Shown in pieces: positions 17,081 through 22,573 of a stretch of DNA of 64,000 nucleotides. The notes under the pieces were generated by a model. It ran no database searches. It saw only the letters and a list, made by a program, of their open reading frames with translations, and was not told the origin of the DNA. How positions within the stretch are numbered: position 1 is the first letter of the stretch; the number at the start of each line of letters is the position of its first letter. Source of the DNA: Chryseobacterium senegalense (GTDB lineage: Bacteria > Bacteroidota > Bacteroidia > Flavobacteriales > Weeksellaceae). Made by a program: the position numbers and the translations under genes. The stretch is from assembly GCA_001403755.1 (NCBI GenBank), contig CYUH01000015.1, positions 1,280,589 through 1,344,588 of the forward strand, written 5' to 3'.

Positions 17081-17179
17081 TTAATACCAAAAGAAATTCA
17101 AACATCTGAAAACCAACAAGAATCTTGTTGATTTTACTTTTGTAAATAAGTTTAGTTTATTGCTGTTTACTTTTGTGTA

Positions 17180-17209
17180 TTGTTGTACTGGATTATTTAT
17201 TTACATTTG
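17180..17209 (+). promoter_or_regulatory. Putative promoter of the XRE regulator
   Basis: TTG (17180-17182), a 19-nt spacer and TACATTTG (17202-17209), only 5 nt before the ATG, so the transcript may be nearly leaderless. Two further TACTTTTG boxes lie at 17135-17142 and 17168-17175. Confidence 0.5.
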
Positions 17210-17215
17210 TAATTA
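17199..17215 (+). promoter_or_regulatory. 17-nt near-palindromic element, copy 2
   Basis: Identical to copy 1 upstream of terC in opposite orientation; it overlaps the -7 box and reaches the start codon of the XRE gene, a position suited to autorepression. Confidence 0.45.
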
Positions 17216-17727
17216 TGAATTTGAACGAGAGAATTTCAAAAATTATAGAATATTCAGAACTTTCTTCTTCTGAATTTGCAGATACGATCGACGTGCAGCG
17301 TTCGAATATTTCGCATATTACTTCCGGTAGAAATAAACCATCCTTGGATTTTCTCATTAAAATTAAAGAGCGGTTTCCAGAAATTCAGTGGGATTGGCTA
17401 ATCAAGGGCGACGGTGAAATGCTCATCAAACCAGAACCGGAAATCATTGTTGAAAAACAGAAACCCACTTCCCTGCCCGATTTGTTTTCTTTAATTGACG
17501 ATGATAATTTTGGGATTACGGAATGTGAAGATTCAACACAAAAACATATTCCGCGAGAATCGAAAATTTCCGCACAAACTCCCGAAAAAGAAAAAATATC
17601 CGATTTTCAGCGATTAGGCGTTCAGGAAAATCAAACTCCCTTACAAACACCTGAAAATCAAAAAAGTAAAATTATCAGGATTGTAATGTTTTATGACAAT
17701 GGGAAATTTGAAAGTTTCGAACCTTAA
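17215..17727 (+). CDS. XRE-type helix-turn-helix protein
   Basis: A 170-residue protein with an N-terminal Cro/CI HTH (about residues 1-65: MNLNERISKIIEYSELSSSE, FADTIDVQRSNISHITSGRN, then KPSLDFLIKI). This is followed by IQWDWLIKGDGEML, typical of Bacteroidetes XRE proteins. The rest is a low-complexity Pro/Gln/Lys-rich tail (TPEKEK, PLQTPENQ) ending in a short hydrophobic strand. It probably acts as a DNA-binding regulator. The ATG at 17215 is preferred over a TTG at 17173, which precedes the -7 box. It sits between terC and the AAA ATPase gene. Confidence 0.82.
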   Translation: MNLNERISKIIEYSELSSSEFADTIDVQRSNISHITSGRNKPSLDFLIKIKERFPEIQWDWLIKGDGEMLIKPEPEIIVEKQKPTSLPDLFSLIDDDNFGITECEDSTQKHIPRESKISAQTPEKEKISDFQRLGVQENQTPLQTPENQKSKIIRIVMFYDNGKFESFEP

Positions 17728-17841: not shown

Positions 17842-19191
17842 ATGAAATTAGCCGAACTCGCAAAAGAACTTCAAATATCCACCGAAAGCTTTATCAAATT
17901 TATCCAAGATTTCGATTTGGAAATTTCAGAATGCATTTCGACAAATTTTGAGGTTAAGAAAGATTTCATAAAATTCGCTAAAGAAAATATAACTTTTTTG
18001 AAGAAATATGAAGAGGTTTTAGGCCACAGTAAATCCGTTGAAGATATCGCCAAAACCATAAAGCAACCCCAAGATAAAGTTACCGAAATTTTAGAAAAAG
18101 ATAAAGTAAAAATCTATGACAATGGTTTTTATAAATCCTCAGTTTCCAGCTATGTAATCGATCAAAAGCTGGGTGGCAATTACCAATTTGTTTATGATTA
18201 TTTCGGAAAAAAAACCAGTCTTGCTGAGCGAGATTTCATCGGTTATCGTGACCTTTTTTTCTTTATTTCGAAAACCTTAGATCCTTTTTTACATCACTCG
18301 CTGCTTACGGATTGGGGAATTCATAAATCAGCAGGAATTATTTTATACGGACCTCCCGGAAGTGGAAAAATTTTCTGGGCTAATAAAATTGCAGAAATTG
18401 TTGATTTTCAGTTTAAACAGATTAAAAAATATTATTTCGGAACTTCATTTGTGGATGGTAGGAAAGCCAATTTCAACGATTTTTTGGTTGAAATAATGAG
18501 CGAAGACAAAGTTTTACTCTTCATGGATGATTTTGATACGATTATGAGTGAAAGAAGCCAGGAAAAATCGGTTTCATCTTGTTATGAAGAAACCAAAGAA
18601 ATTGTTTTGCATTACGTAAATCAGTTCGAAAAAGAAGGCATATTGATGATTGGATCAGCAAATTCTTTAGTTGATATTGATACGGAGATTCTGGCGCCGG
18701 GACGATTTGATGTAACGATTCCCATTTTTCCGCCAAATGCCCATGAACGCGCCGAAATGATCCTGTATTATATAAAGGAAAATCTTTCCAAAGATGCTAT
18801 TTTAATGGAAATTTTAAAAGCGAATGATGCCGATCATTTACCGTTCTGGAAAGATATTTCAATGAAAATGAAAGTGTTTTCGAATACGATGATCATCGAT
18901 TTCACGCAAAGTTTGAAGAAGAAAATCAGAGATATTTATCTAAAAAACAGCTCTCCAAATATAAAAATCACTGAAAAACTTTTGGAAGCCGCTTTTCGAG
19001 AAGCTTCCGCAAAACATACAGGAGAATATCTAAATCACGTTGCCCAATTTGTACAGGATGTTTCAATCAACAATTATGATGATTTTTCCAGTAGAATTGA
19101 AGCATTGAAGGCGGAACTCGATAGCTACAAAATGGTTGAAAAACCGAGAAAAACCATTGGTTTTACTCATAATGAAAATAAGGAATCGTAA
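17842..19191 (+). CDS. Degenerate AAA ATPase with IF2N-like N-terminal domain
   Basis: A 449-residue protein. Residues 1-48 (KLAELAKELQISTESFIKFI) resemble the small N-terminal domain of translation factor IF-2; a second helical segment follows. The AAA core has Walker A GPPGSGK (170-176) but with Ile177 where Thr or Ser normally binds magnesium. Walker B reads LLFMDDFD (225-232), with Asp230 replacing the catalytic Glu. The second region of homology is IDTEILAPGRFD, where the first Arg of the usual LRPGRFD is Ala. It may therefore bind ATP but hydrolyse poorly. The substrate is unknown. It follows the XRE gene by 114 nt. Confidence 0.75.
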   Translation: MKLAELAKELQISTESFIKFIQDFDLEISECISTNFEVKKDFIKFAKENITFLKKYEEVLGHSKSVEDIAKTIKQPQDKVTEILEKDKVKIYDNGFYKSSVSSYVIDQKLGGNYQFVYDYFGKKTSLAERDFIGYRDLFFFISKTLDPFLHHSLLTDWGIHKSAGIILYGPPGSGKIFWANKIAEIVDFQFKQIKKYYFGTSFVDGRKANFNDFLVEIMSEDKVLLFMDDFDTIMSERSQEKSVSSCYEETKEIVLHYVNQFEKEGILMIGSANSLVDIDTEILAPGRFDVTIPIFPPNAHERAEMILYYIKENLSKDAILMEILKANDADHLPFWKDISMKMKVFSNTMIIDFTQSLKKKIRDIYLKNSSPNIKITEKLLEAAFREASAKHTGEYLNHVAQFVQDVSINNYDDFSSRIEALKAELDSYKMVEKPRKTIGFTHNENKES

Positions 19192-21525: not shown

Positions 21526-21640
21526 AATTGTGTTTTTCCGTCATTTTATTTCAAATTTTCCCCGATTGATTTACCAACTGTTTGAATGTGCATCCGCACA
21601 AAATACATTTGCCTCATCATTTACCAAAAAACATTTTATA

Positions 21641-22573
21641 ATGAAATTTTTAGCACCAATAATTTTTCTGCTGATCGCAGTGTCCTTATCCGCCCAGCAA
21701 AATAAGTATGAAGAATGGTATTTTAACACCAAAGACAGTTTAAGAATTTATGTAAAGGAATCTCTATCTACTTCTAAAGACACGGTTATTGTGCTTCACG
21801 GTGGATTTGGAGCCAACCACGATTATATGTTGGATGCGACAAAAGGTTTGAAAGGTCGGTTCCATTTTGTTTTTTACGATCAGCGCGGTTCATTGATGTC
21901 CCAACCTTCGGCTCCTGAAAAAAAACTGACATTCGATAAAAATGTAGGCGATATCGAAACGCTGATGACAGCATTATACATCAAGAGGGCAAAATTTCTT
22001 TGTCATTCCATGGGAACCCTTGTGGGAATGGAATTTCTAAAACAGCATCCCGAAATGGTGAAAAATATGGTACTGGTCGGTGCAGTGATACCGGTAGCAT
22101 AGTCGGCGGACGATGTTTTCACCAAGCGCCAGAACGATCAGGTAAAATTTCTAATGGAAAGAAAAGAAGTAAAAGATTTGCTACAGCTTTATGAAAAAAA
22201 ACAAAATCTTTCGCCGAGATAAGCCACACGTAAATGGAAGATTCAGTTTGCTTCGGTAAATTCTTATCAGCTAAATAAAAGCCTTCAAAACTTCAAAGGC
22301 GGAATGGCTTATTATAATCAAAGAGTGGCTAACGCGATGCCTAAAACAGTCAACTGGAATTACGATTACCCTGATGCGATGAATAAAAACGGAAAAATAA
22401 CCATCATCAATGGCGAATACGATTTTATGGATTTTGGCAGCACAACCTATTCGGGAAATATCAAAAATTATCCTTCCATTGATCTCAAAGTCATTCCGAC
22501 TTCCGGTCATAATGTCTGGAGCGATGAACCTGAACATTTTAAAGAAGAACTCGAAAAAGCATTAAGCAAATAA
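21641..22573 (+). pseudogene. Secreted alpha/beta hydrolase broken by two in-frame stops
   Basis: One continuous reading frame encodes a signal peptide (MKFLAPIIFLLIAVSLSAQ), an oxyanion region (VIVLHGGFG), the nucleophile Ser123 in CHSMGTLVG, then a TAG at 22100-22102 and a TAA at 22220-22222. Beyond the stops the same frame continues with the acid segment INGEYDFMDFG and the catalytic His in PTSGHNVWS, as in alpha/beta-hydrolase peptidases. No frameshift is needed. With the triad split by stops, the product is truncated after residue 153. It is probably a recent pseudogene; sequencing error is possible but two independent stops make it less likely. Confidence 0.85.

Follow-up and report, generated by a model that had tools for sequence, protein, structure and literature searches.

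A degenerate classical AAA gene of Chryseobacterium senegalense, a candidate ATP-binding scaffold with an invariant C-terminal IGF tripeptide

The window, a stretch of 64,000 nucleotides of Chryseobacterium senegalense DNA that was analysed as a whole, carries a classical AAA gene whose nucleotide site is degenerate, and nearly all full-length homologues sampled across the taxonomic family share this state. The encoded protein is probably (at a rough probability of 0.6, judged from sequence comparison) a lineage-specific classical-AAA pseudo-ATPase that would act as an ATP-binding scaffold or docking platform and not as a motor. Most known degenerate AAA domains share their polypeptide with an active AAA domain, the D1 domains of Pex1/Pex6 being an example. 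Here a single-domain AAA protein appears to have lost three catalytic positions together while keeping the P-loop Lys and one arginine finger, and it is widespread in a bacterial family. A natural canonical relative is available for comparison, which makes the role of a dead AAA ring testable in a non-pathogenic bacterium.

The AAA core and its nucleotide site

The features of the gene and its upstream neighbour are listed below by window position and strand.

17842..19191, + strand: degenerate classical AAA gene, whole ORF, ATG start, 449 amino acids
17842..18150, + strand: residues 1-103, a pair of small helix-turn-helix-like modules that at best resemble IF2N/MerR (structure models, Z up to 4.0)
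18334..18378, + strand: Walker A stretch, residues 165-179 (GIILYGPPGSGKIFW), with Ile177 replacing Thr/Ser and an invariant Trp179
18514..18537, + strand: Walker B, residues 225-232 (LLFMDDFD), with Asp230 replacing Glu
18688..18711, + strand: arginine-finger motif, residues 283-290 (ILAPGRFD), Ala285 in place of the first Arg, Arg288 kept
18877..18927, + strand: residues 346-362 (FSNTMIIDFTQSLKKKI), a helix following the ATPase core and, on average, the best conserved of eleven segments compared
19156..19164, + strand: residues 439-441, IGF tripeptide, invariant (132/132), in a low-confidence C-terminal tail
17173..17727, + strand: XRE-type regulator gene (HTH_3, E 1.6e-5), a genus-level neighbour and not a general partner

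The AAA core named in an earlier, sequence-only reading of the gene is confirmed by a match to Pfam AAA (PF00004) with an E value of 1.5e-16 and 61.5 bits against a gathering cut-off of 21.2. AAA alone exceeds the Pfam cut-off in the 449-residue protein, the scan found no kinase domain in it, and the AAA profile is matched by 50 of 50 family members (E up to 1). An AlphaFold2 model built from the family alignment has a mean pLDDT of 84.1. Its AAA part resembles p97-type D2 domains, the best row being Cdc48 D2 (Z 20.8, rmsd 3.3, 269 residues aligned) with many rows within 1 of it, and a PDB profile search likewise gives VAT and Cdc48/p97 as best matches. The AAA fold is therefore shared with p97/Cdc48, VAT and Rix7, from which the present protein differs in its single AAA domain, its N-domain, its degenerate site and its IGF tail.

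The genome holds a single close copy of the gene at E <= 0.001; the sole other match is a 682-residue frame, FtsH-like by eye (E 2.9e-10, 22% identity). The nearest named homologue records (93% and 86% identity) are from Kaistella haifensis, Chryseobacterium sp. Marseille-Q5410 and Kaistella montana, and mark the genome as Kaistella-like. A literature search of titles and the starts of abstracts returned nothing on the degenerate AAA family. The AAA gene in the available part of PMC8459023 is a YifB-type protein.

Residue counts refer to 132 different full-length homologues. These derive from 215 loci examined, of which 206 had a match; 10 that were not full length were left out, leaving 196 loci. 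The set is a sample of the 255 gene-bearing genomes, with best or chosen loci taken. The residue register is backed by a profile-profile alignment with canonical AAA proteins (GKT, DE and LRAGRLD; E 9.2e-28, columns 152-314).

Three departures from the AAA consensus had been claimed from this one ORF, together with the proposal to align homologues, and all three prove to be family-wide. The Walker A motif reads GPPGSGKIFWA. Ile177 is present in 131 of the 132 homologues, so that the GK[T/S] of an active AAA protein is missing, and Thr occurs there solely in locus L156; Lys176 is present in 131 and Trp179 in all 132. The Walker B motif has Asp at both 229 and 230. Position 230 is D in 107 homologues, N in 17, S in 4, E in 2 and H in 2, and the Asp-Glu pair of active sites occurs in 1 of 132. 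Position 285 is Ala in 130 homologues, Ser in one and Arg in one, and Arg288, the second finger, is invariant (132/132). The pair of arginine fingers three residues apart is therefore broken, with the first lost and the second present. In the available part of PMC10518020, such a pair characterizes active AAA sites, and replacement of its first member by Lys gave 100% and 80% inhibition.

The alignment adds two deviations to those listed previously. The Walker B Asp at position 229 is itself variable (D 68, E 63, T 1), and the 229/230 pairs are DD in 63 homologues, ED in 43, EN in 17, DS in 4, EH in 2, and EE, TD and DE in one each. The sensor-1 Asn at position 274 is N in 93, K in 15, D in 10, T in 8, E in 5 and H in 1. 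The Kaistella montana copy (L037) has Glu at both 229 and 230 and retains Ile177 and Ala285.

These residues suggest a mechanism in which the AAA domains would assemble into a ring or partial ring, with ATP at the subunit interface between the P-loop Lys176 of one subunit and Arg288 of its neighbour. In canonical AAA rings, the Lys176 and Arg288 positions reach the phosphates from opposite sides of the interface. With no Mg-binding Thr, no catalytic Glu and no first arginine finger, the ATP would not be hydrolysed, or would turn over very slowly. That Lys176 and Arg288 persist where the catalytic and metal positions are gone fits ATP as structural glue or as a sensed ligand, and not as fuel. 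Docking, and with it the gathering of partner proteins, would then fall to the helix-turn-helix-like N-terminal modules and to the flexible IGF tails at the C-terminus. The sequence-only reading had offered a scaffold or pseudo-ATPase as its alternative, and with the degenerate site found family-wide this is the better half of that interpretation.

A precedent is provided by the D1 ring of Pex1/Pex6, whose motifs are degenerate. In the part of PMC10518020 available to us, ATP is bound in all of its domains without hydrolysis, and the ring still moves with the active ring. Pex1/Pex6 differs in that an active D2 ring is part of the same proteins and the dead ring keeps the Walker A Thr, whereas the degenerate domain here stands alone.

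Selection, origin and distribution

At Ile177 and Ala285, synonymous codons vary while the residue stays, which indicates that the residues themselves are kept. Ile177 is encoded by ATT in 78 homologues, ATA in 35 and ATC in 18, and Ala285 uses four codons. The window copy has dN/dS values of 0.108 and 0.091 against two close relatives (two pairs). Across the N-terminal, AAA and C-terminal parts the values range from 0.083 to 0.112, and those of the AAA part (0.112 and 0.083) show that this domain is not decaying. By these measures the degenerate site is a kept state under purifying selection and not a state of decay. A decaying pseudogene was rejected for the window copy by its dN/dS of about 0.1 and for the family by its conservation. 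Separately, the gene is in pieces in three genomes of the genus, G026 (L158), G002 (L159) and G003 (L043/L160, the Kaistella haifensis record), and these broken copies may represent decay or assembly error.

One full-length homologue is canonical throughout. It is found in genome G329 (L156, P0002), is divergent (36-37% identical) and reads GCGKT, FFDEFD, AATN and IRPGRFD. It shares with the degenerate members the stretch after the core (FSNSLVIDFTQ), the C-terminal IGF and the N-terminal layout. The other two genomes of the genus of G329 have matches confined to the AAA region. In a midpoint-rooted tree of 45 representatives, G329 stands alone on a very long branch (4.2); with such rooting and such a branch, the tree leaves it undecided which state came first. 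The nearest AAA relatives examined outside the family are kinase-AAA fusion proteins, in which GKT, DE and the finger Arg are kept in nine of nine. With one canonical member and nine canonical relatives, the ancestral state was likely the canonical one. The simplest reading of these sequences is that an ancestral ATPase lost the three positions together early in the family. The canonical copy of G329 could be a transferred gene.

At E <= 1e-20 the gene is matched in 255 of the family's 320 genomes (249 of the 306 good genomes) and in 17 of the 33 genera. It was not found at this threshold in the remaining 65 (57 of the good ones). Within the genus of the window, 35 of 36 genomes carry it, including the window's own and the three that have it in pieces. 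In G023 the gene is absent from between TerC-XRE and DPP-IV, which are in place and separated by 407 bp where 1574 bp are otherwise found. The lack of a match in 65 of 320 genomes, the absence between kept neighbours in G023 and fragmentation in three genomes indicate that the gene is dispensable, which weighs against the scaffold reading. Presence is patchy in genera g28, g31 and g32, where for example G251 and G255 have the gene and G249, G250, G252, G253 and G254 do not.

Outside the family, searches were made against order, class and phylum genome sets that are samples and partly overlap. No full-length relative was found in the sampled genomes of other families. With the whole profile, matches outside the family in 395 order genomes (E <= 1e-20) and in 395 class genomes (E <= 1e-28) were limited to profile positions 104-351. 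The C- and N-terminal profiles gave no convincing relative outside the family among 395 and 345 phylum genomes, respectively (E <= 0.01); four weak matches (E 0.0019-0.008, two with internal stops) were discarded. No plasmid matched at E <= 1e-20. Two phage records, of one virus, matched residues 126-300 alone and contained no full-length relative, and all matches in viral contigs were centred on the AAA domain. A mobile or defence origin was rejected on the absence of plasmid matches at this threshold, the short span of the phage matches and the centring of the viral-contig matches on the AAA domain. The gene looks like an old, mostly vertically inherited family gene that is dispensable yet strongly selected.

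The N-terminal modules and the C-terminal tail

The N-terminus had been described as IF2N-like, and structure prediction supports this as a weak fold resemblance and not as an assignment. Residues 1-143 modelled alone (pLDDT 75.3) form two helical modules. The model matches CarH (Z 4.0), CadR (3.9), RacA (3.6) and IF2 N-domains (3.4-3.9), with MerR-type chains at 2.3-4.0. A Z of about 4 is within the range given by unrelated small helical domains. Foldseek found no match to the model at E <= 0.001, which is not evidence of a new fold. Pfam IF2_N (PF04760) matches residues 1-21 below its cut-off (E 0.33, 11.2 bits against 25.3; 15.3 bits in the genome search) and is matched by 16 of 50 family members at E up to 1, the best at 0.0018. 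In the same genome, a 956-residue frame has two IF2_N matches, one above the cut-off and one below. Against these, hhalign gave a probability of about 2% (E 0.021, 16 and 26 columns); the IF2_N side of these comparisons consisted of single sequences. MerR-type, RacA and IF2 N-domain folds are classed near one another, and this kinship could explain the original IF2N reading, which the sequence comparisons do not confirm.

The N-terminal profile also matched a CAP repeat (E 1.8e-7), a designed helical protein (E 6.1e-4) and a viral spike construct (E 0.0012) in the PDB. These were taken as chance because they involve short helical or odd stretches, and because the CAP repeat and the spike have no independently passing stretch.

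The region after the ATPase core is strongly conserved. Residues 346-362 have a mean commonest-residue frequency of 0.94, which at 9 of the 17 positions reaches at least 98%. Near the end of the protein, the tripeptide I439-G440-F441 is present in all 132 homologues and is followed by 3 to 25 residues. The last 17 residues (433-449) have a pLDDT below 50. As a control, IGF was found within the last 30 residues of 1 of 637 ORFs of at least 250 amino acids that are not AAA relatives; these are stop-to-stop frames from related loci, many of them mutually homologous and some not genes. A PDB search with the C-terminal profile gave best E values of 0.12 and 0.57. The invariant C-terminal IGF tail is a new observation of this analysis, and the simplest reading of an invariant hydrophobic tripeptide in a flexible tail is that of a putative docking motif.

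The same tail occurs in the kinase-AAA fusions of Bacteroidota (L236-L244, frames of about 580-615 amino acids), in which IGF lies at the end or within four residues of it in nine of nine. The two families share the AAA domain (hhalign E 9.2e-28) and the C-terminal IGF region, whose profiles align with a probability of 68% (E 4.7e-5). The fusions differ in having an N-terminal kinase (Pkinase E 1.1e-36 in L237, the one scanned, and others alike by eye), in keeping GKT, DE and the finger Arg in all nine, and in their operon partners. The common tail points to a docking partner that the two AAA families would share in Bacteroidota.

The operons of the fusions (for example L237:1110-8852) contain a protein starting with NPYRI, a coiled-coil-like protein and one or two Hsp70-like proteins, then the IGF-tailed kinase-AAA protein, one that by eye is TerB-like, and a DUF6804 protein. 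A short tail of similar kind closes several of the Hsp70-like proteins. The Hsp70-like protein of L237 matches Pfam HSP70 with an E value of 5.5e-67. PADLOC at E <= 0.001 gave no match for the Hsp70-like, TerB-like and first proteins of L237.

ClpX also has an IGF tripeptide, which in its case sits on a loop of the ATPase domain; here it lies in a C-terminal tail, and the AAA subfamily is different. The ClpX locus of the same genome reads ...NKQAIGFSAEK, which allows a shared docking site but does not show one. By analogy, the dead AAA ring might be a nucleotide-gated adaptor whose IGF tails dock a ClpP-like peptidase or a kinase-AAA/Hsp70 partner, as the IGF loops of ClpX do, and which gates, competes or delivers without hydrolysis. 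We consider this improbable. Flexible loops are mentioned in the available part of a ClpX paper (PMC8745299).

Neighbouring genes and other explanations

The adjacent XRE gene had been proposed to form a small module with the AAA gene. The pairing stands inside the genus of the window, where 31 of 33 AAA loci have XRE as their upstream neighbour on the same strand (one with about 1.1 kb between), as do the broken AAA loci of G002 (L159) and G026 (L158). It does not extend further. No XRE homologue was found within 1.5-kb flanks at any of 30 loci of other genera, and G023 keeps XRE without the AAA gene; a general module was rejected on these grounds. In a wider set, XRE is present at 13 of 96 loci, a count that underrates the genus pairing because few of these loci (77 and 19 by origin) come from the genus of the window. 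The two genes are a genus-level pair, possibly with shared regulation there, and not a module required by the AAA protein.

The eight window neighbours scanned with Pfam comprise DUF4920, M14 peptidase, TerC, DPP-IV, abhydrolase and histidine kinase proteins and two without a match. No obvious client for the AAA protein is among these eight. No general gene partner was found at the loci compared, which also counts against the scaffold reading.

The degenerate site could instead belong to a slow but real ATPase, a remodeller or unfoldase with an altered active site and a metal-poor P-loop. This is unlikely, although it has more in its favour than the retained Lys176 (131/132) and Arg288 (132/132). 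Position 203, which is pore loop 1 by eye, is F or Y in 100 of 132 homologues, the fold matches p97-type D2 domains (Z 20.8, rmsd 3.3, 269 aligned), and Walker B pairs of DD, ED or EN might still allow slow hydrolysis. The Mg-binding Thr and the first arginine finger are, however, each lost in 131 of 132 homologues, of which 23 carry Asn, Ser or His at the catalytic position 230.

A role as a DNA- or RNA-binding regulator, with the AAA domain as a nucleotide-gated oligomeriser, would have the MerR/IF2N-like modules bind nucleic acid or the ribosome. The structural matches to CarH, CadR, RacA and IF2 N-domains agree with it, but Z values near 4 are also within reach of unrelated small helical domains. 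The net charge of residues 1-60 is -3 in the window protein and -5.8 on average over the 132 proteins, and such acidity speaks against nucleic-acid binding. Release factor 2 (by eye) is among the neighbours in 70 of 96 loci, 58 of them within four downstream same-strand bins; this may reflect inherited gene order, and the gene does not adjoin the AAA gene in the window. Such a regulator is very unlikely. Less likely still is a remnant or offshoot of a defence module, either an IetA-like ATPase or the kinase-AAA/Hsp70 operon, that has been retained for immunity. IetA is the best PADLOC profile, without a stated cut-off, for the window protein (E 1.2e-13, residues 145-361) and reaches 2.7e-35 in the canonical relative. 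NCBIfam anti-phage ATPase IteA matches at E 3.6e-11, far below its cut-off. The IGF tail is common to the kinase-AAA proteins, and the gene is patchy in some genera. The IetA match falls on the AAA domain and the region following it, however, and the protein differs from IetA in its degenerate site and its N-terminus. IetAS requires an adjacent subtilisin-like protease, and no subtilase was found by Pfam among the eight window neighbours. The lack of plasmid matches (E <= 1e-20) and of phage matches beyond residues 126-300 also counts against defence. So does the presence of the gene in 35 of 36 genomes of the genus, mostly with the same upstream neighbour, which is unlike mobile defence genes.

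Two further observations concern other genes at these loci. At 21530-22573 of the window, an alpha/beta hydrolase gene looks broken; its N-terminal part (Abhydrolase_1) ends at 22102, and a continuation-like ORF that matches nothing in Pfam at E <= 1e-5 starts at 22304. At L144:3114-4475, three nearly identical ORFs, GIY-YIG nucleases by eye, are arranged in tandem.
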